A stretch of DNA of 48,304 nt from Spirochaetota bacterium. Its GTDB lineage: Bacteria; Spirochaetota; UBA4802; JAFGDQ01. How positions within the stretch are numbered: position 1 is the stretch's first letter; each line of letters starts with the position of its first letter. Position numbers and translations under genes: made by a program. The stretch spans positions 1-48,304 of the forward strand of contig JAXHTS010000013.1 in NCBI GenBank assembly GCA_034190085.1, given 5' to 3'. Below the pieces are notes generated by a model. It did not search any database. It was not told the DNA's origin and saw nothing but the letters and a program-made list of their open reading frames with translations. Below, piece by piece: positions 23,338 to 47,577 of this stretch.

Positions 23338-25260
23338 TTATATAATAATTCTCACAATGGGGATCTTCTTTCCCTTGCCCTTTACATAAATTGGTGGAAT
23401 CTCTTGAAACCTATATTTCTTCTTTGCATGCAAAAATAATTCTTTGGAAACAAGAATCTCGCTGGGTTTAGCCAAAGAACACAACCTCGCTGAAAGGTTT
23501 ACTGCATCCCCAACGCAAGCATAGTCCATCCTGAAACTTGATCCTATGTTCCCAACAACCACATCACCACCATGTACGCCTATTCCTACTTCAAAAATTG
23601 GCAGATTCTTCTTTGTCCTTTCCATATTTGCCCTTTTTATTGATCTCATAATCTCAATTGCGGTTTCTATTGCAGTATCTGCCCTCTTCTCTCCACCAAA
23701 GTGGGCCATTACCTCGTCTCCAGTATAATCATCAATATCTCCCTTCTTGGATGTTATGATCTTTGCCTGTAATTCAAGATAAAAATTTAGCACCTCAATC
23801 ACTGTCTCAGGATCATTTTTTTCAGAAAAAGATGTAAATCCTCGAACATCTGAAAAAATAAAGGCTAAATTCATTCTTTTAGTTGTACCAATAGCCACAT
23901 CCCCCTTCTTCCTTCCGATCATACTTCTGGTGGATCTTGAGACAAATTTCTCAAGGTGATATTTCATCTTGAGTTCATCAAGCATATTATTGAATATATC
24001 ACCAAGCCTACCAATCTCGTCATTGCTATCAATCTCAATCTTTGTCCCCAAATTCCCAGCGCTTACGATTAATGCCCATTTTTCTAACTTTTTCAAATTC
24101 TGTATCATATAATTTAACACAATGAGAAATGCTATACCACAGAGTATGATCATTACCAGGGCAATATTCATTACCTGGCTAATATTCTGACCTAACTCCT
24201 TCTTAATCATATCCACATTAAATATTATTGCCAGTGCGCCAAGACGCCTTACATTCTCAACTTGAGAGGATAGATAATTCAAACGTTTGATTATTAAATC
24301 ATTGATCTCCTTTGCCCTCGCTGGCATATCATTTAAATAGGCATCAATCTTTTTCTTCTTTTGAAGGAATAGCCATTTGTCGCGCCATAACCACTTCTCT
24401 CCTTTCTTAATACGCTTATCCCTGTATGTCATAATATTGCTGAATAGCTTTAAGAATAGAAAGTCTATATCCGATGCCTTAACGATAATAGAGGGAAACC
24501 CATCCTGTTTTTTGAGCTTTTGATTATTAAACTCATCTCCAAGGGTTTTCCTATATTTCCTCCATAACGAACGATAAATCTGATTTCTTGCCTTTTTGTC
24601 CGAGTTGTGATATTTATTATAATATTTTTTGAAATCCTTCAGCAGGTTAACCACATTGCCCCTGTGTAGAAAAATTGGATAGGTGATAGCACGATATCTT
24701 TTGTTGATCACTTCCTTTGTCTTTTTATTCTTCTTTTTCTCAGTATAATCATAAAAATACAATTTCTCCTCTTTCTGCTTCAAACACCTCTTTATATAGG
24801 ATTGAGTAGATTTCTGTTTGCGCATTGACTTTTGGGTACTGAATTGAATTATTCCCCTTTCATCAGTCAGAATAATGCTTACAATATCATCGTTATAGGT
24901 CTTGAAATTCGATGATTCCCTTACAATGGTCTCATACTTGATACGCAATTCCTCCTTTGTTGTCATAATGTTCTTATCAAGATAAAACTCAGCAGGGCCG
25001 CTTAATATTCGAGTAAGCGTTGACGCCTTCCTATACTTTTCATCCTCCAATAGCCTTCTCTGGTTCATATACATTATCAGGGTAAAAATACTAATTATAA
25101 CAATCATCACAAGAGATAATAAGCCTAAAAATCTTATTCTTATTCCAAAATATACTTTTCTTATATTTGCCTGGTTTTTATAATCTCTATCAAGCGGTAA
25201 AAGCCCTTTAAGAAAAAGGGCAATCCTAGGATACAGCGTATATAAATATTTTCTAATCAA
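23338..25260 (-). CDS. HAMP-linked class III nucleotidyl cyclase
   Basis: 640 residues. Membrane helices at about 43-65 and 364-384 flank a large, very basic extracytoplasmic sensor; HAMP at 385-437; a class III cyclase domain at 462-640. Metal-binding Asp at 471 (FSDVRGFTSFSE) and 515 (GDEVMAHFG), and the transition-state Asn588 and Arg592 (VNLSARL), are present, so catalysis is expected. The adenine-reading Lys of the usual IDK(F/Y)xGD motif is replaced by Asp511 (IDDYTGD), so the product (cAMP, cGMP or other) is uncertain. TTG start with AAGG eight bases before. Such receptors are numerous in spirochaetes. Confidence 0.9.
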   Translation of the reverse strand: MIRKYLYTLYPRIALFLKGLLPLDRDYKNQANIRKVYFGIRIRFLGLLSLVMIVIISIFTLIMYMNQRRLLEDEKYRKASTLTRILSGPAEFYLDKNIMTTKEELRIKYETIVRESSNFKTYNDDIVSIILTDERGIIQFSTQKSMRKQKSTQSYIKRCLKQKEEKLYFYDYTEKKKNKKTKEVINKRYRAITYPIFLHRGNVVNLLKDFKKYYNKYHNSDKKARNQIYRSLWRKYRKTLGDEFNNQKLKKQDGFPSIIVKASDIDFLFLKLFSNIMTYRDKRIKKGEKWLWRDKWLFLQKKKKIDAYLNDMPARAKEINDLIIKRLNYLSSQVENVRRLGALAIIFNVDMIKKELGQNISQVMNIALVMIILCGIAFLIVLNYMIQNLKKLEKWALIVSAGNLGTKIEIDSNDEIGRLGDIFNNMLDELKMKYHLEKFVSRSTRSMIGRKKGDVAIGTTKRMNLAFIFSDVRGFTSFSEKNDPETVIEVLNFYLELQAKIITSKKGDIDDYTGDEVMAHFGGEKRADTAIETAIEIMRSIKRANMERTKKNLPIFEVGIGVHGGDVVVGNIGSSFRMDYACVGDAVNLSARLCSLAKPSEILVSKELFLHAKKKYRFQEIPPIYVKGKGKKIPIVRIII

Positions 25261-25583: not shown

Positions 25584-26672
25584 GTGATTAAAATACTATT
25601 GACATCAGACATACACCTTGGACATAGAAATGATGATTTCTATGTATCAGAAGACGCTAGAATGAAAACCTTTAAAAGGATAACATCCCTTGCAAAGGAG
25701 CATGACCTATTATTAATTGGGGGAGATCTCTTTGATTATCCAAATATTGGTAAAGAACTTATTGATTTTGTTGCTGAAGAATTTCAAAATATCAGGGATA
25801 ATGACGTAGAAATCGTATACACCCTTGGAGAAAATGAACTCTATGAAGATGGCTCTATTCCGAATTTTCTATTAAATCTGAATACAAATCATCTATTTTC
25901 AAGGATTGAGCACTCTCCCTATTGTTTCTCAAAGAAAAATCAACAGGTATTCATTTATGGATCACCATCTAGAAAAATTGATTTCTCTCAAATAAGAAGG
26001 AAGGCAGAAGGTGGATTTCATATAGGATTATTCCATGTAAATTTCGTCCTCAATGATGAATGTATAGATTCAAATATTTCCACACTACATAGGAGGGATA
26101 TAAAATCTCTAGACCTCGATTTTTATGCCCTTGGGCACTATCATCACTTCAAGGTGTTCAAATCCATGGGCAGAATCATTGCAGCATATCCAGGTAGTCC
26201 GGAAGCTACCTCCTTCGGTGAGAAGGGGGATCGATCTGTTCTCTCAATTATTGTTGATGATAATGAAATATCCCAGATAAAGATGTTTACTGTAAATTCT
26301 ACGATAGTTAATGAGACATTCATCGATTGCTGCAAGCCAGATGCTCACAACACCTTATGTGAGGTCTTAGAGAATAATAAATCTTTTCAGACAATTATAA
26401 AAATTATCCTGTTTGGGAAGAGAGATTTCAATATAGATTCTCAGATAATTGAGGGATATGAGAGGGAATACCTCAAAATCCTTGTTGAGGATAATTCATA
26501 TCCTTCAATTGACCTTTTAATAAAAGAATTCGAAAATGAAAATTCATTAAGGGGAGAATTCTTTTCAATTTTAAAAGAGAGAATAGCCCAAAAAGAGATG
26601 CCTCCTGATATAGACCTAATGAATCTGTCTGAAATATTACATCATACTCTAAGGGAGGAGACCCTTGTTTAG
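25584..26672 (+). CDS. SbcD/Mre11/YhaO-like metallophosphoesterase
   Basis: 362 residues. Phosphoesterase motifs: D9-x-H11 (SDIHLGH), GGD48 (IGGDLFD), H151 (GLFHVNF) and GHYHH (184-188), then a capping region. The third motif, normally GNHD, reads GENE (82-85), so the catalytic His and the Asn ligand are replaced; nuclease activity may be altered or lost. It precedes by 11 bp a large SMC-like ATPase, the SbcD-SbcC or YhaO-YhaN arrangement, and the two proteins probably form a complex working on DNA ends. GTG start, ribosome site weak. Confidence 0.8.
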   Translation: MIKILLTSDIHLGHRNDDFYVSEDARMKTFKRITSLAKEHDLLLIGGDLFDYPNIGKELIDFVAEEFQNIRDNDVEIVYTLGENELYEDGSIPNFLLNLNTNHLFSRIEHSPYCFSKKNQQVFIYGSPSRKIDFSQIRRKAEGGFHIGLFHVNFVLNDECIDSNISTLHRRDIKSLDLDFYALGHYHHFKVFKSMGRIIAAYPGSPEATSFGEKGDRSVLSIIVDDNEISQIKMFTVNSTIVNETFIDCCKPDAHNTLCEVLENNKSFQTIIKIILFGKRDFNIDSQIIEGYEREYLKILVEDNSYPSIDLLIKEFENENSLRGEFFSILKERIAQKEMPPDIDLMNLSEILHHTLREETLV

Positions 26673-26683
26673 GAGGAAGTGCT

Positions 26684-28849
26684 GTGCAAATAATCGAGTG
26701 CATAGCCTCAAAACCCGGACTTTTTGATAATACTATAATCGAATTGGACAATAGGGTTAATATTATCTATGGGGGAAATGACTCAGGGAAGAGCCTTTTA
26801 GCCAGAGCCATTATTGATACATTGTGGGGAATCTTCCCCAACTTATCATTATTGAATGGTGACGCTTGGGATAACCTATATTTAGATATCCTATTTTCCA
26901 ATACTGATAGCCAATACAGGTTTATTAGAGATAGTAATAGAACATTTGAGATATTAGCAAAAGAGGGCTCTGTAGAAAAAAAAATTTATGAAAATACAAA
27001 CAACAATAAGGAAATAGTCTCAGATGGGGACATCTATAAAAAGCTTCATTCCTTCAATAATGGTGTGAAAATAATAGATTTTTTCAATAGTATTGATATA
27101 ACAACATTCTTGAATATCGCCTTCTTGCCATCTCCTCTTGAATCACATCGACATGAGACATCCTATTACACTAACCTTAAAAAAATATTAATTGAGGACA
27201 GCACTGATTCAAATTTATTTTATAGAAATATAAAAAATGCCTTCGGACAGGAGGAGACATTCAACTTTAATAATCCTATTCTAAATGAAATCCTAAAAAC
27301 TGAAGGTATTATTAAAGATTGTGATAAGAAGATACAGATAATTGACATTCAGAATTCAAAGATAGATAAGCTATACAGGGAAAAAACACAAATTGAGGAA
27401 AAGATTGGTGGTTTAGAGAAGAAACTTGCAGAACTCAGAAATAGAAAGAGCACCCTTCTTGTTATACTGGAGAATGTTATTAGACTTCAGAGTATTGAGA
27501 AAAATATTACAGAAATAGCAGAAGAAATCCTATATGAGCATGATAAGACCAAAAGCGTCTTGCGAATGGTTGAGGAGATTGAGATCATGTTTCCTCAGTT
27601 TAAAGATTTTAATGAAATTAGCAGGAATAATATACAAAAAATTGAGGAAGCATACAACGATATACGAAGCGTTAATGAGGTTATAGATGATTTTATTTTC
27701 CAAAAAAAAGAAAAGAGGAATTGGATGACCAATAGACTCATAATAATTAACCTCTTTTCTATTATTGTAGCATTTGTCACTCTCAACATTGATGCCGTAA
27801 TTATACCCAGTGGTGACAAAATAACCATACTAGTCCTATTATTGATTCTCTCCCTAAGCCTATCATTCTTATCCGTTTTACCTTATGTATTTTCATACAG
27901 ATCCAAAGAACTTAAACAATTGATTACTAAAAAAAATTGTATGGGGAAAAGATTAAAATGCCTGCTAAATCAGAACAATATAGATTTAAATGATAATAGA
28001 TTAGAATCGATATATGAACTTCTTGTCCAGTACTTTGAAGAATATGGCGAATATTCAATCAAACATTTTGAACTTAGTAATGCCAAGGAATCCCTGAAGG
28101 ATAAAGAATACCTCAACAGAATTGAATGCAGATTAAATCGTCTTATTAAAGAAGAGGAAGCGTTAATAGAAGAGATAAATAAGGATATAATCTCGATGAA
28201 GGATGTTGGAAACCTAGAATTAAATCCAGACATAATTCAGGGTATGATATCCAATATAAATTTAAATATAAAAACAATAAAAGATAACATCAAATTAAAT
28301 GAAACAATTATTATTAATATAAATAAGGATATTAAAGACAATAAAAACTTGTTTCAAAAAAGAGAACAACTGATTGAAGAGAAAGAGGAAGCAGAGAAAA
28401 GACTAAAGGATTTGAATACTGAAAAGAATTCTATTTTCTATATCATGGAACTCTTAACAGAGGCAGTTAATCAAAGGGAAAAGAAGCAACTTGATAAATT
28501 GGTTCTATCCTCACTAGATAAATTCCAAATACTCACAGATAATCACTACGATCATCTTATAGATTACAACCATATCAGTAATCTAATTACGAGGAATGAA
28601 CATATTGAAAACACGAGTCCTGCAATTATTCATATATTATTACTCTCAATTATGCTCTCAATAACAGATTTTTTGGTTGATTATAAACTTGACCTCCCAT
28701 TAATTATTGATGAGCCATTCCTATTCATGGATGATATACGGATTAACAGGTTGAAACAATTGCTTGATGATATTTCACATAAGAGACAGATAATAATTTT
28801 TACCTATAATCCAAATCTAAAGGCTTTAGGAAGTTGTGTTGAATTATAG
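26684..28849 (+). CDS. SbcC/YhaN-like ATPase with internal membrane hairpin
   Basis: 721 residues. Walker A at 30-37 (GGNDSGKS), long coiled coils, and a C-terminal Walker B LIIDEPFLFMD (about 672) followed by the D-loop/switch region ending in FTYN. At the apex, where Rad50/SbcC has a CxxC zinc hook, there are two strongly hydrophobic stretches at roughly 350-372 and 382-406, predicted to be a membrane hairpin, as in B. subtilis YhaN. This would tether the ATPase heads to the membrane on coiled-coil arms. GTG start after AGGAGG; 11 bp behind the phosphoesterase gene and 2 bp before the TPR gene, so one operon. Confidence 0.8.
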   Translation: MQIIECIASKPGLFDNTIIELDNRVNIIYGGNDSGKSLLARAIIDTLWGIFPNLSLLNGDAWDNLYLDILFSNTDSQYRFIRDSNRTFEILAKEGSVEKKIYENTNNNKEIVSDGDIYKKLHSFNNGVKIIDFFNSIDITTFLNIAFLPSPLESHRHETSYYTNLKKILIEDSTDSNLFYRNIKNAFGQEETFNFNNPILNEILKTEGIIKDCDKKIQIIDIQNSKIDKLYREKTQIEEKIGGLEKKLAELRNRKSTLLVILENVIRLQSIEKNITEIAEEILYEHDKTKSVLRMVEEIEIMFPQFKDFNEISRNNIQKIEEAYNDIRSVNEVIDDFIFQKKEKRNWMTNRLIIINLFSIIVAFVTLNIDAVIIPSGDKITILVLLLILSLSLSFLSVLPYVFSYRSKELKQLITKKNCMGKRLKCLLNQNNIDLNDNRLESIYELLVQYFEEYGEYSIKHFELSNAKESLKDKEYLNRIECRLNRLIKEEEALIEEINKDIISMKDVGNLELNPDIIQGMISNINLNIKTIKDNIKLNETIIININKDIKDNKNLFQKREQLIEEKEEAEKRLKDLNTEKNSIFYIMELLTEAVNQREKKQLDKLVLSSLDKFQILTDNHYDHLIDYNHISNLITRNEHIENTSPAIIHILLLSIMLSITDFLVDYKLDLPLIIDEPFLFMDDIRINRLKQLLDDISHKRQIIIFTYNPNLKALGSCVEL

Positions 28850-28851
28850 CT

Positions 28852-29832
28852 ATGGAACAAAATGGACAACTCAATTTTTCAGATGATCCCTTACTTGCTG
28901 GAAGTAATGAATCTTTCCAGTTCTTAGAAGAGGGGAAATTCTTAGAAGCAGTGACCAAGCTTGATGAACTTATGAGCATAAATCCAAATTATCCAGGATT
29001 AGGGGAGGGATACCGAACAGCAAGATTTTGGAACAACAGGGAAAAAGAGATCAACAACCTGGATCAGGGCAAACAAACAGCGGACTTCCTAATGATTCAG
29101 TGGATGGAATTTGAGAATTATGCGGAAGAGAATCATATGAAGTATTCTATGGCATACCATTCAGCAATGAAGTATATCTTTTTTACCGCCTCTGAGCATT
29201 ACAAGATAGCCTTTAGGAGCCAGGATAGTTCTACAGATAATTTCGATCTCTTGCTCAATTTAGGCATCTGTTTTTTAATATTAGAAGAATATAATTCTGC
29301 AATAGAAACCCTTGAGTACGCCCGCAGTATTCATAAAAATAGCGCAAGATTACTGAGCATGCTTGGCGAAGCCTATTATCATACTGGAGAGATGTCTAAA
29401 GGGCTTCTATATCTGAAAGAGGCATTTTTGATAAATCCCTCTGAAATTGACATTAGCGCCCTGAAATCCAAACCTATTCTCGAACTAATAAAGATCGTGC
29501 ACAGTAGCAAACCGGATTGTAATGATCCCAGGGAATGGATGCCGATATTTGGTTTTGTAAAAGAATTATTCAATGCTAGACGCCAGTTAAACAGAGACCA
29601 AGTTGAAGTGCTAAAGCGCGATATACGCAGCCTGGAAAAAAGCTTTCAAACCCTGAGTAAAGAGAGAATATACAACTCCAACATTATCCCCAGACTCGCA
29701 AATAAATATCTTTGGATGCTTGAATATTTCAGATATCAAGAGTATGATTCAACCAATATCAAAGAAATAAAGGAAAGGCTTATTCAGATTGATGGAGAAA
29801 TATTTGAAATATATTTCATGGATACGCAGTAG
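28852..29832 (+). CDS. TPR-repeat protein
   Basis: 326 residues, soluble. At least three TPR-like helix pairs: FQFLEEGKFLEAVTKLDEL (about 22-45), LLLNLGICFLILEEYNSAIETLEYA (130-155) and LSMLGEAYYHTGEMSKGLLYLKEAF (165-190), then a helical C-terminus. TPRs are protein-binding scaffolds. The start codon is 2 bp past the ATPase stop, so the protein probably assists the phosphoesterase/ATPase pair; that functional link is inference. No catalytic residues seen. Confidence 0.75.
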   Translation: MEQNGQLNFSDDPLLAGSNESFQFLEEGKFLEAVTKLDELMSINPNYPGLGEGYRTARFWNNREKEINNLDQGKQTADFLMIQWMEFENYAEENHMKYSMAYHSAMKYIFFTASEHYKIAFRSQDSSTDNFDLLLNLGICFLILEEYNSAIETLEYARSIHKNSARLLSMLGEAYYHTGEMSKGLLYLKEAFLINPSEIDISALKSKPILELIKIVHSSKPDCNDPREWMPIFGFVKELFNARRQLNRDQVEVLKRDIRSLEKSFQTLSKERIYNSNIIPRLANKYLWMLEYFRYQEYDSTNIKEIKERLIQIDGEIFEIYFMDTQ

Positions 29833-29944: not shown

Positions 29945-31987
29945 CTATTGGGAGATTGGCAACATTATGCTAAACTCCGCTCCACCGGTTTCTTTATTCC
30001 TTATCGTAATACGCCCATTATGATCACGTATTATTTTATTTACTATTGCAAGACCAAGCCCAATGCCCGTAACCTTTGTAGTGAAAAAGGGTTCGAAAAT
30101 ATTATCAATATTTTCACTGCCTATACCATGACCCGTATCTCCAATAGTTATCGTAACATGACCATCATCAACATCTGTGATAATCTCAATCTTGTCCTTA
30201 GGGCCAGTTGCCTCAATTGAATTCTGTAGCAGATTCAAGATCACTTGCTTAATCTGATTAAAATCTACACGAAGGAGTGGAATTTGTTTGTTTAACCTCA
30301 ATGAAACCTCTATCCCCTTCTCCTTTAATTGATTCCATAATAGTTCCATCGTTTCATTTATCGCATCATTTACATTATTGTATTCTATTACAAAGGACGA
30401 GATCTTGGTAAAGTCCATAATATTAGAAAGGATATCCTCAAGCCTCTTTGACTCCTTTATTATTATATCAGCCGCCCTAAGCACCTCTACATCATTCTCA
30501 GCAAGCTTTTCTATTCGCCTAGCATATCCTCCCATCGTAACCAATGGATTTCTGATCTCATGAGCTAAATGAGTAGCAACACGTCCAACCGCTGCCAATC
30601 TCTCTGATTCAACCATGGATTTCTGTCTCCTTCTCATTGCCTCCATTTGCATTTCTAAGGAAAAGATAATGCGGTTGTTTTCGATATATAGCGCCACCTG
30701 AAGACTAAATGTAGAGAGTAGCTGAATATGATCATCTATAATGGGAATAGGAGTATCTAAATTATCAGCAATGATTAAACCTATTGCCCTATTATCAACA
30801 ATAAGCGGTACCACAACAAATTCATCCACATTCATAAATTCTCTAACCTCATTGTCAACCCTATCATCACCATTGGAATCTTGAATGTGAATTATCTCTT
30901 GATTCTTTAATGATCTCACGAAGATATTATTACTATCCATATCAAATATAATGGATTCTGTCATATCTGGCATTCTCATACTTTTCACTATTGAAATAGT
31001 ATGACCGTTATCAGGATTAGTGAAAGCAGCATAACCTCCGGAGCCAGATAAAATATTTTGTATCTTAAGGGTTGAATCTGAACCTACAATCATTTCCCAT
31101 CTTAGTGATTTTTCCCTCTCATCCAGGAGAAAGAGCATCGCTCTTGCAAATCCAAGTCCATTTTTGGAGGTTATGCTTGAAAGTATAGTATATAGATTAG
31201 TATTATTCTTTTCATCTCTATAAGTCAGATCTGATAAACCTTCCAATACATTAATCTGATAATCCTTTTTGCATCTTGTTGTTATATCATCTATTATAAG
31301 AGAAATATGCTCCCATCCATGGGTTGCTATCTTTGATAATTTCATATCAGCTATAATGGATATTTTCTTTTTGGAGAAGAGATGTATTTTCTCTAATAGA
31401 ATTGAATTATTGAATGACTTCACTTGAGTGATCGCTTCATTAATCTTATTTGTAACAAAAATGAATATTTCGTTTATGTTTCTACCAATTATTTCCTCCA
31501 AATCTACTTGAAACTTTTTACAGAAGCTATCATTGGCAAAGATGATTTCTCTCTTTTCATTAAGAATAACTAGATATGAATCAACTAAAAGGATTATGTC
31601 ATTGTAAAACTCATAAAATTTTTCAATCTCAAACTTCTGGATTGTCAACACTTCATTAACATGCCTTCCAATAATTATAAGCTCATTAAATATTTTTGCC
31701 AATTCATCATTTTCATTTACATGTTCCTGTGAGACAATATACTTTCCCCTTTTCAGCTCATCTATTACTCCGATTATATTTTTTATTCTTCTAACAAATA
31801 AATATTTATAACCTATCTTTAATGTAATTGATTGTAGTAAGAGAAAGGATCCAATCCCCATAAGAGAATAACGTAAAATCTCAGATGAAAGATATTCCTT
31901 ATAAATGTAAGCAAATATCATACCTAATAAAATGAAAACATCTGGCAGATACAGGATGAAGATTCTTACAAAAGAGTATTTACTCAA
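29945..31987 (-). CDS. PAS-GAF sensor histidine kinase
   Basis: About 680 residues. Two membrane helices (about 8-30 and 38-60), a linker, a PAS domain (about 125-235, LVILNEKREIIFANDSFCKKF), a GAF domain (about 265-450), HisKA with the phosphorylated His in ATHLAHEIRNPLV (about residue 475), then HATPase_c with N-box LNLLQNSIEA, G1 GDTGHGIG, F-box FEPFFTTK and G2 GIGLGLAI. No receiver or regulator gene is adjacent, so it is an orphan kinase. A TTG at 31987 is preceded by AAGGAGG and is preferred to the ATG six codons earlier, whose codons contain that site. Confidence 0.88.
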   Translation of the reverse strand: MSKYSFVRIFILYLPDVFILLGMIFAYIYKEYLSSEILRYSLMGIGSFLLLQSITLKIGYKYLFVRRIKNIIGVIDELKRGKYIVSQEHVNENDELAKIFNELIIIGRHVNEVLTIQKFEIEKFYEFYNDIILLVDSYLVILNEKREIIFANDSFCKKFQVDLEEIIGRNINEIFIFVTNKINEAITQVKSFNNSILLEKIHLFSKKKISIIADMKLSKIATHGWEHISLIIDDITTRCKKDYQINVLEGLSDLTYRDEKNNTNLYTILSSITSKNGLGFARAMLFLLDEREKSLRWEMIVGSDSTLKIQNILSGSGGYAAFTNPDNGHTISIVKSMRMPDMTESIIFDMDSNNIFVRSLKNQEIIHIQDSNGDDRVDNEVREFMNVDEFVVVPLIVDNRAIGLIIADNLDTPIPIIDDHIQLLSTFSLQVALYIENNRIIFSLEMQMEAMRRRQKSMVESERLAAVGRVATHLAHEIRNPLVTMGGYARRIEKLAENDVEVLRAADIIIKESKRLEDILSNIMDFTKISSFVIEYNNVNDAINETMELLWNQLKEKGIEVSLRLNKQIPLLRVDFNQIKQVILNLLQNSIEATGPKDKIEIITDVDDGHVTITIGDTGHGIGSENIDNIFEPFFTTKVTGIGLGLAIVNKIIRDHNGRITIRNKETGGAEFSIMLPISQ

Positions 31988-33389
31988 ATATCCTCCTTGC
32001 TCCATTTGATTTTTATTGAGGAAGAAAGAGCAGTTATTCTTATCATTAATATAGATGATTCAAAGTAGTGTTTAATATAATAAGGGACTTTCATTTTTTG
32101 AGAAACAGTTGTAATTCCAAGATAAAAAGATAAGGATTTCTATAAATAATGGCAAAATACTGAGAATTAGGAATTACAGCTATAACACATTAAAATGTTT
32201 TATTACAAAAGATGCAACAACAAATTTCACCCCATGTTTTTGAAACATCATACAACATGAAATGAAAGATCATATATAAAGAAAATATACCCTACGAAAC
32301 TAATTCAGCTATTTGTCATATTGTATATTGAACCATGTTAAATCGTTAAGAGATGGAATTGATATGTTTAACTATCAAGAGGGGTGATGAGGTTCAAAAA
32401 GAATATTCTTCAAAGGATTATTATGTCAAGGAAATTGGATAATGATAATATTTTCTTGTAAAGAAAATAATTCAATACATAGGAGAATATTCAGAAAAGT
32501 ATTGCGAGTATGTTCGCACTTTAACGATATATGATTCATGTTCATGTGAAAATTTTAATGTAATAACCAAAAATTTTAAATTTACAGTGAAGGAGATGGA
32601 AGATATTTAGTAAACTGAAGGTATCCCTGCCGGATTGTCAATAAAAACTCTTTGAGGATAAATATATCGTATAAATCTAACATTAATGCATATGAGGAAA
32701 ATAAAAAGAAATTCTTGACAGAATATTTATGTGTATGTGTATTTGACTATATTAAATTTTGCAGATTTTTGAATTTTATAAATAGGGTTTATTAGTTTCT
32801 ATGTATATATATTGGGAAATAATAACCTCATTTCAACTTGAAAATCCCTGAATATCTGAATTGATTTAAGAATTCAGGAATTTTTCAAACAATAATGCCC
32901 AAAGAGTGACAAGCACTTATATTAAACGGGAGGGACATGAATTATACTGATCTAACGAAATGTACTATCCCCAAGTACATGTCACCTTAAAATGCGAGTA
33001 AATATATTATCAAGAAGGAACCATATATTTCGCAGGTTTTGATAAAAAAGTGGAACTAATCGTTGAAATTAGCGGTTTTGCCAGTTATCTGCTTGTAGTT
33101 GAATAATTTGAGGGAGAATAGGTTAGGTGTGACGTGCAGAATGCGGCAATCATGTTCTTCAAATCGTTTAGGGGCTTTCCGATAGTGAGTGGATCAATTA
33201 ACTTGATTTATAAGCTATAAGGAGATATAAAAATAGTAAATATAGGAATTATTGGTAATTTGATTGTGTATAGCAACAAATATACAATCGTCTTAAGGGG
33301 TAGGTCAATTCAGATATGATTGCTATGCCGAAATGGAGGTCTAGGCGTCAATGTGAGCCAAGAAAGCTAATGATGGAGGAGCTTCAAAC
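31988..33389. other. Long intergenic region, 1.4 kb
   Basis: No gene of normal size on either strand, and very AT-rich. Contents worth recording: a TTGACA (32715) with an AT-rich -10; a long hairpin at 32841-32885 (see separate entry); a 17-codon frame at about 32939 behind GGGAGGG; and a short piece reading TATCAAGAGGGGTGATGAGG near 32375 that resembles only the first stem of a SAM-I riboswitch. From 32995 to 33230 the sequence looks like broken coding DNA. Confidence 0.4.
32841..32885 (+). terminator. Hairpin followed by T-run
   Basis: AAAATCCCTGAAT pairs with ATTCAGGAATTTT over 13 bp with one mismatch, an 18-base loop, and T-rich end. It could end a small transcript started at the TTGACA near 32715, or act as an attenuator upstream of the MetF-like gene. 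Confidence 0.45.
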
Positions 33390-44220: not shown

Positions 44221-47200
44221 ATGGGAAAAACTCAAATATTTCAGATTTTGCATATCTCTGACCTGCATGTAAATACTAAAGAGAATTTCGACAGGTCTGT
44301 TGTGCTTGATCCTTTGATTGAGCGTGTGAAAGAAGATAGAGAAAACGGCTTTAAACCGGAGATTGTCGTTGTTACTGGTGATATCGCTTATCATGGAATC
44401 AAAGATGAATATGACCATGCAAAAGCATTTTTCTATGATCTACGTGAAAACCTCAAGCTTCCCAAAGAAAGTGTCTTCATTGTGCCGGGCAATCATGATG
44501 TGAATAGAGAGAAATACTTAAAGAGTAGCGGTGTCCCCACATACAACGATATGAGAGATTTGAATGAGGAGCTTGAAAAGGAATATAAAAGGAATAAACT
44601 TTTCGAAGGTTTAAATGAATATTTTACTTTTATCGAAAAGAATTACCCGCATCTGAAAAGCAAGCATGGAAGGCTTATCCCCTTTGTTTATTCTTACAAA
44701 GCCCTCTGTAGAAAGAAGATAGGGCTTGTGGGATTAAACTCCGCATGGATGTGCAGAAAATCGCCTGATGAATCATCTATTAAAGAGAAAATAGCAATTG
44801 GGGAATACCAGACAAAGAAGGCTATAGAGGAGCTTAAGGAACAAGGTAATGTAAATCTTCAAATAAATCTTTTTCATCACCCGCTGGAATGGCTATGGCT
44901 TGAAGATAGAAGTAAATGCAAAACCTATCTTAATAACTCTATTATACTCACTGGTCATCTTCACGATGCTGGGGGCGGGTATTTTCAAGAATATGGTAGT
45001 AGCCTTTGTCAGTTTCAGGTTGGCGGAGCATATCTTGGCAGCGATTCAAAGAAACCTGCAAGGTTTCAGTATATATCATTTGACTGGTCGGAAAATGAAA
45101 TAAGGCTGGATTTTAGAAAATACCACGAAGGCAAATGGGTATTGGATGGTGAAACTGGAGATGATGGCCATAAGGAATTTTCACTAAACATTGCCTCTGA
45201 CAGTAAAACCAGAAAGAAGAAAGAGGAACAGATAAAGCAGGCTAATGAACAGGACAGCATATTCGGGAAGTATGTCAAATATGCTTCAAACGAACATAGA
45301 CATCTGCCCATGCAGGGATTTGAAACCAATCTCAGAGTGCCCATTGAGATTGAGCGCGTGTATGTAAACATGCGCGCGCATATACATGCTTACGATCTCG
45401 AAAACAGATCGCGTAAGGAAGTGGCAGCAGGAAAGGAACAACTGCCCTCGCTTGACATCAAGAAAGCTTTTGAGATTGCTGAAACACGAAAAATAAAGGA
45501 CATGGTAATACTGGGCGACCCTGGTTCTGGCAAGACCACGCTCTTAAAATATATCCTCATAATGCTAATTGACGGCAAGGGTATGGAAAGAATAGGCCTG
45601 GATTCGAACATCATCCCGTTTTTCGCCCCTCTTAGGGAATTAAAAGATCCTGATAATGAAGACTTATTGGATTTTATTAAAAGGATATGCTGTTTCTACA
45701 ATTGCGAAATTTCAGGTGAAGATTTTAAAAAGCTTCTTAATAACAATAGGGGCATCATACTTTTAGATGGTCTTGACGAAGTTGCTGATGAGGATGCGCG
45801 CATCAAAACCTGCAGATGGATTGATGATGCCAGAAAAAAGTATGTGCATACGCGATTTGTAATCACTTCAAGACTTGCTGGATATATGGGAAAAAGCAGG
45901 CTGGAAGGCCAGCCTGTGCTCGAGCTTTCTATTCAGAATTTTACTCCGGATGAAATAAAGTCATTCCTGATTAGATGGTTCGAGTCTGTTGAAGCTGCCA
46001 TGCTTCCAGATGCTGAAGATGCGTGGATGAAGAAGGGTCGCGAGCAGGCATTACAGCTTGTTGAAGAAATAGAAAAATCTGAATCAATAAAGAAGCTTGC
46101 TGTAAATCCACTGCTCCTTCAGATTATTGCCCTTGTGCGAAGGGACAGGGGAACTGTGCTTCCACAGCGGAGGGTGGAGTTGTACCAGGAATGCGTAAAT
46201 GTGCTTCTTGAGAAATGGGACATGGCCAAGGGTCTTGATATTCTGCTCTCAGCTAGCCAGGCAAGGCGGATATTACAGCCTGTGGCTTTGTGGCTTCACG
46301 AAAAAGAAAAAGAGCGGCATGCGCCGCTTAAAGAAATAATTGATTTGATTAAAGAGCCTCTTGAAATAATAGGCAAATCGGGAATCGATCCCCAAAAGCT
46401 TCTTTACAATATCCGTGACAGGGCCGGCATTTTTACTGGCTACAGCGAATCCGAATACGGCTTCAGCCACCTAAGTTTTCAGGAATTCATTGCCGCTGAG
46501 CATATACGAAATACCCGCCAGCTTAACATTCTAACAGACAATTACAACAATAGGTGGTGGAGGGAGGTTACACTTCTCTGCCTGGGGCTTGATAATCCAT
46601 CGATTATTGAAGATTTCATGAAAATTATCATACAAACAGAAGCTTTTAAGTCAGATATTACACTTATTACTGACGCTATTGATGATTCAATAATTAAACC
46701 AGCTAAGCCCTTTATTGAAGCTGTAAATAATCATGACCTGTCTGATGATGTTAAAAGGAATGCTATTCGAATATTGAAGCACGTCAGCAGCACAGGCGCT
46801 CGGGTTGATATACCTACATATGAAGATGCTGAAATTGAACAAAGGCAAATGTTTATCATAAATGATATTGATAACTCGAAGATGGCGCTCATCCCCGAAG
46901 GCGACTTCCTTTACGGAAGTCGTGAAGATGACAAGGTAGCAGGAAGCAGTGAAAAACCACAGCGAGTTATCAATCTGCCATCTTTCTATATGGATGTTTT
47001 TCCGGTCACGAATAAGCAGTTTTGCTCATTCCTGAATAGTACAAATCCAGGAGAGAAGAACTTGAATAAATGGATTAATTTAGAAGGGAGCTTTAGGAAA
47101 GAAAAATGCAGGATAAGAAAAGAAAGAAATAAATATATTGTTGAGAAGGGGTATGAGGAACATCCTGTTATTTATGTAAGCTGGTATGGAGCAAATGCTT

Positions 47201-47577
47201 ATGCAAAATGGGCAGGGAAGAGGCTGCCTACTGAACAGGAGTGGGAAAAGGCGTCCCGTGGAACAGATGGTAGAATTTATCCTTGGGGGGGGGAATTTAA
47301 TCGAAAATTATGCAACACAGATGAAAGTGGAAGAGGAGGCACATCACCAGTGGATGAATACCCGGATGGCAAAAGCCCTTATGGGTGTTACGACATGGCA
47401 GGTAATGTTTGGGAGTGGACAGCTAGCTTGTATGACGAGTATAGGGATGCATATGTCTTGCGCGGCGGCTCGTGGGGCATTGATCGGGACTACTGTCGCT
47501 GTGCAGCTCGCTTCAACAGCGTCCCGCTCGATAGGTACGACGATGTTGGATTTCGTTGCGCCAGGGCTCAATTGTAA
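44221..47577 (+). CDS. Phosphoesterase-NACHT-FGE fusion, DGR target protein
   Basis: 1118 residues, three modules. (1) Calcineurin-like phosphoesterase, about 5-320: D14-x-H16, GD54, GNHD (90-93), FHH (218-220), GHLH (245-248), all metal ligands intact. (2) NACHT STAND-type NTPase, about 370-780: Walker A GDPGSGKT (432-439), Walker B IILLDGLDE (512-520), VITSR sensor, NPLLLQIIALV and YGFSHLSFQEFIAAEHI. (3) FGE-sulfatase/C-type-lectin fold, 887-1118: ALIPEGDFLYGS, FPVTNKQFCSFLN, EHPVIYVSWYGANAYAKWAGK, RLPTEQEWEKASRG, MAGNVWEWT. The far C-terminus is a DGR variable repeat. Likely a cytoplasmic sensor: lectin-fold recognises, NACHT oligomerises, phosphoesterase acts as effector. Defence role is inference. 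A nine-G tract lies in codons 1022-1024. Confidence 0.92.
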   Translation: MGKTQIFQILHISDLHVNTKENFDRSVVLDPLIERVKEDRENGFKPEIVVVTGDIAYHGIKDEYDHAKAFFYDLRENLKLPKESVFIVPGNHDVNREKYLKSSGVPTYNDMRDLNEELEKEYKRNKLFEGLNEYFTFIEKNYPHLKSKHGRLIPFVYSYKALCRKKIGLVGLNSAWMCRKSPDESSIKEKIAIGEYQTKKAIEELKEQGNVNLQINLFHHPLEWLWLEDRSKCKTYLNNSIILTGHLHDAGGGYFQEYGSSLCQFQVGGAYLGSDSKKPARFQYISFDWSENEIRLDFRKYHEGKWVLDGETGDDGHKEFSLNIASDSKTRKKKEEQIKQANEQDSIFGKYVKYASNEHRHLPMQGFETNLRVPIEIERVYVNMRAHIHAYDLENRSRKEVAAGKEQLPSLDIKKAFEIAETRKIKDMVILGDPGSGKTTLLKYILIMLIDGKGMERIGLDSNIIPFFAPLRELKDPDNEDLLDFIKRICCFYNCEISGEDFKKLLNNNRGIILLDGLDEVADEDARIKTCRWIDDARKKYVHTRFVITSRLAGYMGKSRLEGQPVLELSIQNFTPDEIKSFLIRWFESVEAAMLPDAEDAWMKKGREQALQLVEEIEKSESIKKLAVNPLLLQIIALVRRDRGTVLPQRRVELYQECVNVLLEKWDMAKGLDILLSASQARRILQPVALWLHEKEKERHAPLKEIIDLIKEPLEIIGKSGIDPQKLLYNIRDRAGIFTGYSESEYGFSHLSFQEFIAAEHIRNTRQLNILTDNYNNRWWREVTLLCLGLDNPSIIEDFMKIIIQTEAFKSDITLITDAIDDSIIKPAKPFIEAVNNHDLSDDVKRNAIRILKHVSSTGARVDIPTYEDAEIEQRQMFIINDIDNSKMALIPEGDFLYGSREDDKVAGSSEKPQRVINLPSFYMDVFPVTNKQFCSFLNSTNPGEKNLNKWINLEGSFRKEKCRIRKERNKYIVEKGYEEHPVIYVSWYGANAYAKWAGKRLPTEQEWEKASRGTDGRIYPWGGEFNRKLCNTDESGRGGTSPVDEYPDGKSPYGCYDMAGNVWEWTASLYDEYRDAYVLRGGSWGIDRDYCRCAARFNSVPLDRYDDVGFRCARAQL
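47461..47574 (+). other. DGR variable repeat (VR)
   Basis: After RGGSW the codons follow the pattern x3-R-x2-CRCAAR-x4-P-x2-R-x3-VGFR. The 14 x codons (47476-47544: GGC ATT GAT, GAC TAC, TTC AAC AGC GTC, CTC GAT, TAC GAC GAT) all end in C or T, as expected if the template has AAC or AAT at each site and adenines were replaced during reverse transcription. One AAC remains unchanged. The framework between them matches the canonical VR of FGE/C-lectin DGR targets. The 3' end (GTTGGATTTCGTTGCGCCAG) would be the homing initiation site. Confidence 0.85.

Follow-up and report, generated by a model that had tools for sequence, protein, structure and literature searches.

The window analysed here is a stretch of 48,304 nucleotides from a Spirochaetota genome (4.27 Mb in 86 contigs, completeness 96%), and it contains three open reading frames in one direction, here called the trio, which code for a phosphoesterase, an ATPase and a protein with tetratricopeptide repeats (TPR) and are separated by 11 and then 2 bases (Table 1). 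The phosphoesterase matches the Pfam family Metallophos above the curated cut-off (2.4e-8), the ATPase matches AAA_27 (2.9e-5; 24.2 bits, above the cut-off of 22) and the third protein matches TPR families. An AGGAGG motif is located 5' of the GTG start of the ATPase gene, and promoter and terminator scans gave values resembling those of shuffled sequences.

The original prediction, made from the letters of the window, described an SbcCD/YhaON-like complex with a TPR protein as third member, and both the Pfam assignments and the gene order in related genomes agree with this composition. When 392 genomes of the phylum were searched, the phosphoesterase was matched in 42 of the 46 genomes of the order to which the window belongs, a single uncultured order of Spirochaetota, and the orthologue of the TPR protein (E below 1e-60) likewise in 42. 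The trio is collinear in all 36 loci fetched from other genomes of this order, with a median overlap of 13 bases between the first two genes and a median gap of 3 bases between the last two; of five phosphoesterase loci fetched later, four show the same gene order and the fifth stops at a contig edge. Genome G213 carries the TPR protein and a partial ATPase at a contig end, with no phosphoesterase present, genome G204 carries a phosphoesterase at a contig end, with no TPR protein present, and neither of these two proteins was found in G097, G154 and G158 (88-94% complete). Because collinearity was seen in 36/36 loci and the asparagine of the GNHD motif is lost from the phosphoesterase in 42/42 (see below), the occurrence of the trio together with its motif loss is more than chance.

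Mean column identity is 62% for the TPR protein, against 42% and 36% for the other two proteins of the trio. The alignments A1, A2 and A3 comprise 31, 31 and 30 rows; the near-duplicates L052, L058, L060, L061 and L063 were left out of all three together with L035, in which a contig end leaves half of the TPR protein, and L040 (masked bases) was left out of A3. The trio members form a single clade, as the trio phosphoesterases and the trio ATPases each make up one side of a branch with a Shimodaira-Hasegawa-like approximate likelihood ratio test (SH-aLRT) value of 99 in their respective trees, both of which are quick searches without bootstraps, with the trait columns left in, and place no sister group for the trio.

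Fold and active site of the phosphoesterase

Structure prediction, proposed as a check on the original prediction, was run on the phosphoesterase and the ATPase. The AlphaFold2 model of the phosphoesterase has a predicted local distance difference test score (pLDDT) of 91.3, and the 39 Mre11/SbcD rows listed among its structural matches have Z scores of 21.5 to 25.7, against 18.9 for the best other phosphoesterase, so that the modelled protein clearly belongs to the Mre11 fold with capping domain. Its score against the NCBIfam SbcD profile TIGR00619 is 50.9 bits, below the curated cut-off of 77.65, a strict value that is exceeded in just 8 of 14 control genomes.

The tetrapeptide GENE had been noticed in place of the usual GNHD. 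It is indeed placed opposite the GNHD of a solved bacterial Mre11 by phmmer, and no GNH was found elsewhere in the chain of the window phosphoesterase. The conservation of this site was followed in an alignment of 42 trio phosphoesterases with 40 others of the phylum, some of them second copies from trio-bearing genomes; among the others are L181, a weak match (3.2e-4) that was excluded from the phosphoesterase tree, and L182, which comes from G154, a genome without a detected trio. The motif-III asparagine, a ligand of metal 2, is present in 0/42 trio proteins and in 40/40 others, and the catalytic histidine of the same motif in 2/42 and 40/40, respectively; in the window the former has become Glu and the latter Asn. 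Standard GNHD was thus found at the aligned position in none of the trio proteins, and the idea that GENE is a single mutated copy was dropped. The motif-IV histidine is kept in 32/42 trio proteins and 39/40 others, and the first histidine of GHxH in 20/42 and 40/40.

A scheme of seven ligands is described for this superfamily in PMC5016852: the motif-I Asp and His, the bridging Asp in motif II and the final His bind metal 1, and the same bridging Asp, the Asn, the motif-IV His and the His two residues ahead of the final one bind metal 2. The metal-1 ligands are kept in most trio proteins: D9 in 42/42 (39/40 in the others), H11 in 38/42 (38/40), D48 in 38/42 (40/40) and H187 in 40/42 (39/40). 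All four are intact in 38/38 trio phosphoesterases outside family f5, including those of the seven members described below whose ATPases lack Walker A, and in f5 (L065, L066, L150 and L151) both H11 and D48 are lost in all four. The fourth position of motif III is acidic in 42/42 trio proteins (Glu in 38, Asp in 4) and is D, S, C or E in the others. When the 362 positions are ranked by conservation, the metal-1 ligands and this acidic position rank between 1 and 33, the former Asn 143 and the former His 214. Glu most often occupies the old Asn position (20/42), the remaining 22 members being spread over ten further residue types, and the old His position is filled by twelve types. Because the metal-1 ligands are kept outside f5 and the fourth position is acidic throughout, the site looks remodelled and not randomly eroded.

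The His-to-Asn change in the window resembles the yeast mutation mre11-H125N, H125 being presumably the GNHD histidine. In yeast Mre11, the phosphodiesterase-motif substitutions D56N and H125N are reported to abolish endonuclease activity in vitro and to leave complex formation intact (PMC2625443), and the H84Q mutant of E. coli SbcCD is called nuclease-deficient (PMC6265447). LpxH, on the other side, has Arg where the catalytic His is usual, and the Dbr1 structures contain one metal, Mn (PMC5016852, PMC4176325). The nuclease activity of the window phosphoesterase has likely been lost, and because of LpxH and Dbr1 we put it no more firmly than that.

The protein could instead be a still-active phosphoesterase with a remodelled one-metal or altered two-metal site that uses the conserved acidic residue of motif III or another side chain, and its substrate at the membrane could be nucleic acid or a small phosphoester. 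This alternative stays alive because the metal-1 ligands and the acidic residue are so well kept, and the frequency of Glu at the old Asn position as well as the precedents of LpxH and Dbr1 speak for it. However, the variety of residues at the old Asn and His positions and the loss of the first GHxH histidine from more than half of the members point the other way, and Dbr1 is described as retaining the very Asn and His that are missing from the trio (PMC4176325), so that we consider it unlikely.

The ATPase and its relatives in the same genomes

The profile of the ATPase family matches solved Rad50 chains (best 5.4e-15), and the AlphaFold2 model of the ATPase (pLDDT 81.1; predicted template modelling score, pTM, 0.53) has Foldseek matches to Rad50, SMC and LmuB chains. 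The LSxG of the ABC signature is present in 0/41 trio ATPases and in 14/14 comparable intact relatives, a count that omits ten ATPase rows, namely L154 and L163 (partial) and L173-L180 (CPxC-type hooks), and in which the 14 contain no hook-bearing Rad50s; L161 is truncated at the signature site, and the L064 ATPase, which gave no BLAST match, was assigned by position. Walker A is lost in 7/41 (L053, L054, L056, L059, L060, L062 and L064), which corresponds to one change on the ATPase tree, and these seven retain the operon. The histidine of the H-loop is kept in 24/41; the window ATPase has Tyr in its place, and its two family members, L031 and L044, have Arg.

The ATPase had been described as devoid of a zinc hook and as carrying a membrane hairpin at its apex. 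No CxxC occurs anywhere in the window ATPase, and a scan of 56 ATPases found none in the middle 40% of the chain, in agreement with the first point. As to the second, two hydrophobic stretches (residues 353-369 and 380-396) lie between the predicted coiled-coil arms, and a third (residues 647-665) lies in the head, in the helix following the signature position. Two mid-chain stretches were found in 41/41 trio ATPases, both with values of at least 1.7 in 39/41 (weaker in L053 and L152), by a scan of the middle 38-62% of each chain, so that their mid-chain position is partly imposed. Lys and Arg account for 317 of 1230 residues in the flanks and for 68 of 539 in the loop, and they are more frequent in the flanks than in the loop in 41/41. 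The hydrophobicity and the charge pattern favour membrane insertion and would fit cytoplasmic heads with a short periplasmic loop. The hairpin is therefore predicted as proposed, but it is not distinctive: 12 of 15 aligned non-trio ATPases also have one, and the idea that it is the novelty of the trio was dropped.

One of these hairpins belongs to a second, intact phosphoesterase-ATPase pair of the window genome (G000:C30; L148, 99000-106500). It has the same two-gene design, but its phosphoesterase (356 aa) contains GNHD, GDLFD and GHFH, and its ATPase (780 aa) contains Walker A, LSGGAYDQ and Walker B. A TPR-like protein of 418 aa and a repeat protein of 620 aa, both read as such from the sequence, lie upstream on the same strand; the trio TPR profile gave no match in the C30 neighbourhood, the TPR-like protein being other than the trio orthologue. 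The Asn and His of GNH are kept in each of the 23 other phosphoesterase loci that were fetched from genomes of the order, C30 included, 20 of which were hand-picked from longer lists and are non-random, and the ATPase partners of these loci, where found, are of hairpin types and of CPxC-motif types. In L173-L180, L182 and L183, GNHS or GNHC replaces GNHD and the adjoining ATPases have a CPxC motif. SbcD was found above its curated cut-off in 10/46 genomes of the order; all four f5 genomes carry it.

With an intact, hairpin-bearing pair in the window genome and GNH conserved in 23/23 further loci, the trio might be a regulatory partner or antagonist of an intact YhaON/SbcCD-type pair, through mixed complexes or competition for DNA ends. 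Yet the other pair varies by family, being of the hairpin or of the CPxC zinc-hook type, whereas the trio is constant, and the TPR protein would be left unexplained; we hold this explanation to be decidedly improbable.

The TPR protein, giant GreA and the surroundings of the trio

In the search of the phylum, the TPR protein gave matches in 351 of the 392 genomes, partly generic TPR, and none in family f49 among the genomes listed. The best matches outside the order, among those listed, have 24-34% identity, mostly over near full length. A scan of genome contigs with the TPR alignment gave 37 loci, 36 in spirochaete metagenome-assembled genomes (MAGs) and one in an 'uncultured bacterium', and the relatives include the Spirochaetota MAGs RBG_13_51_14, HGW-Spirochaetae-5, UBA5550 and UBA2205; a single-sequence scan of genome contigs with the phosphoesterase found no relative. 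Because the nearer outside members share an N-terminal GQLTFxDDP with the trio TPR protein and 23 residues are conserved across the trio and outside sets (L035 was left out of this comparison as well), the outside proteins are supported as its orthologues.

Outside the order, the TPR orthologue lies upstream and on the same strand of a giant GreA of ~900 aa in 19 of 20 fetched loci, 18 of the 19 gaps being between -89 and +240 bases and one being 935; in L075 (G012) the neighbour has 743 aa and matches the family profile only up to a point short of the GreA end, which appears to be missing. In a representative giant GreA, both GreA domains are C-terminal and are preceded by an N-terminal extension of ~750 aa. 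Inside the order, the giant GreA is present in 10/10 genomes searched but beside the TPR gene in 0/10, and in 9/10 it adjoins two genes that read as FlaA-like. The 20 outside TPR loci and the 10 GreA loci of the order were hand-picked from longer lists and are non-random. In this order the TPR gene is thus paired with the degenerate phosphoesterase-ATPase pair instead of giant GreA. Neighbour clusters c7 and c14, judged by length to be giant GreA, were rejected, as they are a valyl-tRNA synthetase and an OmpA/FlgD-Ig protein. Among the titles listed in literature searches, which covered few subscription papers, none dealt with a degenerate Mre11-Rad50 pair with a TPR protein or with a spirochaete giant GreA-TPR pair.

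In the window the trio is flanked by genes for a class III cyclase and a PAS-GAF histidine kinase (Table 1). In the window's family members L031 and L044 the trio is likewise followed by a convergent kinase, and L057, L058, L059, L061 and L063 have kinases of this cluster at other places close to the trio. The cyclase matches Pycsar cyclase models via its catalytic domain, but it has a HAMP domain and no effector was seen beside it.

Table 1. Features of the trio locus, its neighbours and the related TPR-GreA loci
Feature	Position	Strand	Description
Phosphoesterase gene	25584..26672	+	Mre11/SbcD-fold subunit, 362 aa, GTG start; open reading frame, Metallophos
Degenerate motif III	25827..25838	+	GENE, residues 82-85; GNH(D/E/S/C) in relatives; alignment of 42 trio and 40 other phosphoesterases
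ATPase gene	26684..28849	+	AAA_27/Rad50-type, coiled coil, predicted membrane hairpin, 721 aa, GTG start
Walker A	26771..26794	+	GGNDSGKS, residues 30-37, intact in window
Predicted membrane hairpin	27740..27871	+	residues 353-396, mid-chain; hydropathy and charge bias
ABC signature site	28613..28639	+	TSPAIIHIL; LSxG then five residues in intact relatives; alignment
Walker B	28694..28717	+	LPLIIDEP, residues 671-678, intact in window
TPR gene	28852..29832	+	326 aa; TPR Pfam matches; best conserved trio member
Class III cyclase gene	23338-25260	-	HAMP domain
PAS-GAF histidine kinase gene	29945-32005	-	convergent with the trio
Defence-like protein gene	44221-47577	+	1118 aa; Metallophos, NACHT/STAND NTPase, C-terminal FGE-sulfatase; PDC-S60 match over N-terminal 300 residues
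TPR protein and giant GreA loci	L075-L094, e.g. L088:3252-6936		other spirochaete orders

A role in anti-phage defence, of the Lamassu or an SMC-like type, is very improbable. A weak LmuB profile match (3.5e-7), the Foldseek matches to LmuB chains and a defence-like protein 14 kb away, which matches the PADLOC candidate PDC-S60 (3.1e-42), would be in keeping with it, but PADLOC found no LmuA or LmuC in the trio and ten other window proteins (not every small open reading frame), and Lamassu identity was rejected; moreover, the operon is constant in the 36 loci fetched, and the TPR orthologue is widespread in the phylum and stands beside giant GreA. That the genes are decaying remnants without function, as the loss of several active-site motifs, further in two subclades, might suggest, is hardly credible in view of the open frames, the collinear operon, the strongly conserved non-catalytic residues and the high identity of the TPR protein.

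Possible role of the trio

We favour, with a probability of roughly 0.55, the explanation that the trio is a membrane-anchored pseudo-Mre11-Rad50 complex that serves the TPR protein as scaffold or switch. The ATPase heads would lie in the cytoplasm, with the hairpin at the end of the coiled coil inserted into the inner membrane. The phosphoesterase would bind the heads as Mre11 does those of Rad50. Since the second metal site and the catalytic His are lost and the first metal site is kept in most members, the phosphoesterase is probably a one-metal structural or ligand-binding module and not a nuclease. The ATPase should still be able to bind ATP in most members, but as LSxG, which engages ATP across the head dimer, is lost, it is probably a slow switch or a static clamp. 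The role of the assembly would be to keep the TPR protein, its best conserved subunit and main client, at the membrane, and this cargo may be linked to transcription elongation, as suggested by its place beside giant GreA elsewhere. The strongest sign that the retained role would need no catalysis, at least in the members lacking Walker A, is the persistence of the operon in seven genomes without Walker A and the nuclease motif.

Several points weigh against the scaffold or switch. In principle a Glu might take over from the Asn as metal ligand, and LpxH and Dbr1 are precedents for the absence of the usual His or of one metal. The strong conservation of the metal-1 ligands argues against a purely structural role, and f5 has lost most of them, so that one and the same site chemistry would not suit all of the clade. 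Walker A and Walker B are intact in most members and many keep the H-loop His, so that ATP might be hydrolysed in another way. The link to transcription comes solely from the neighbourhoods of other orders, the giant GreA of this order being located elsewhere, and because of the TPR-like protein upstream of the C30 pair, having a TPR neighbour does not by itself set the trio apart. We regard as quite doubtful the more far-reaching proposal that a silenced membrane-anchored relative of Mre11-Rad50 was repurposed to hold the giant-GreA-associated TPR protein at the inner membrane, where an SMC-type scaffold would, in this order, tie either the transcription apparatus or the nucleoid to the membrane.

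The trio looks like a structural relative of Mre11-Rad50, and it should be filed neither as an active SbcCD nor as Lamassu, since features that define each of them were looked for and not found. With Mre11-Rad50 and SbcCD it shares the Mre11 fold with capping domain, the Rad50-like heads with coiled coil and the phosphoesterase-ATPase operon, but it lacks GNH, LSxG and the CxxC hook and has a predicted membrane hairpin and a TPR gene as third member. At the TPR-giant GreA loci the TPR protein is orthologous, but its partner is a GreA of ~900 aa and not a phosphoesterase-ATPase pair. VPS29 of retromer, a phosphoesterase fold believed to act as a scaffold, is similar by analogy only, as it is eukaryotic and part of another complex. 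YhaO of B. subtilis, also known as SbcF, and YhaN resemble the trio in that an AAA_27 ATPase stands beside a phosphoesterase, and intact spirochaete relatives of the AAA_27 family share the membrane hairpin; the comparison here was with those spirochaete relatives, which differ in that they keep GNH and LSxG. YhaN is SbcE according to the title of Krishnamurthy 2010, as cited in PMC4205851, and SbcEF is described as implicated in break repair and poorly characterised (PMC6452273).

Beyond the original prediction, the analysis has added the loss of the ABC signature, the retention of the metal-1 ligands, an intact paralogous hairpin pair in the same genome and the wide occurrence of the TPR protein in the phylum, where it is paired elsewhere with giant GreA. 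The nuclease-dependent and nuclease-independent roles of Mre11-Rad50 are hard to separate, and this order seems to provide a natural separation: most of it keeps the architecture but has lost metal site 2, the catalytic His and the ABC signature, one clade having lost Walker A too, and many of the same genomes contain intact relatives. A nuclease-free role of such a complex thereby becomes directly testable. The trio also joins two poorly understood things, the membrane-hairpin ATPases of the YhaN type and the widespread spirochaete TPR protein that is paired with giant GreA.

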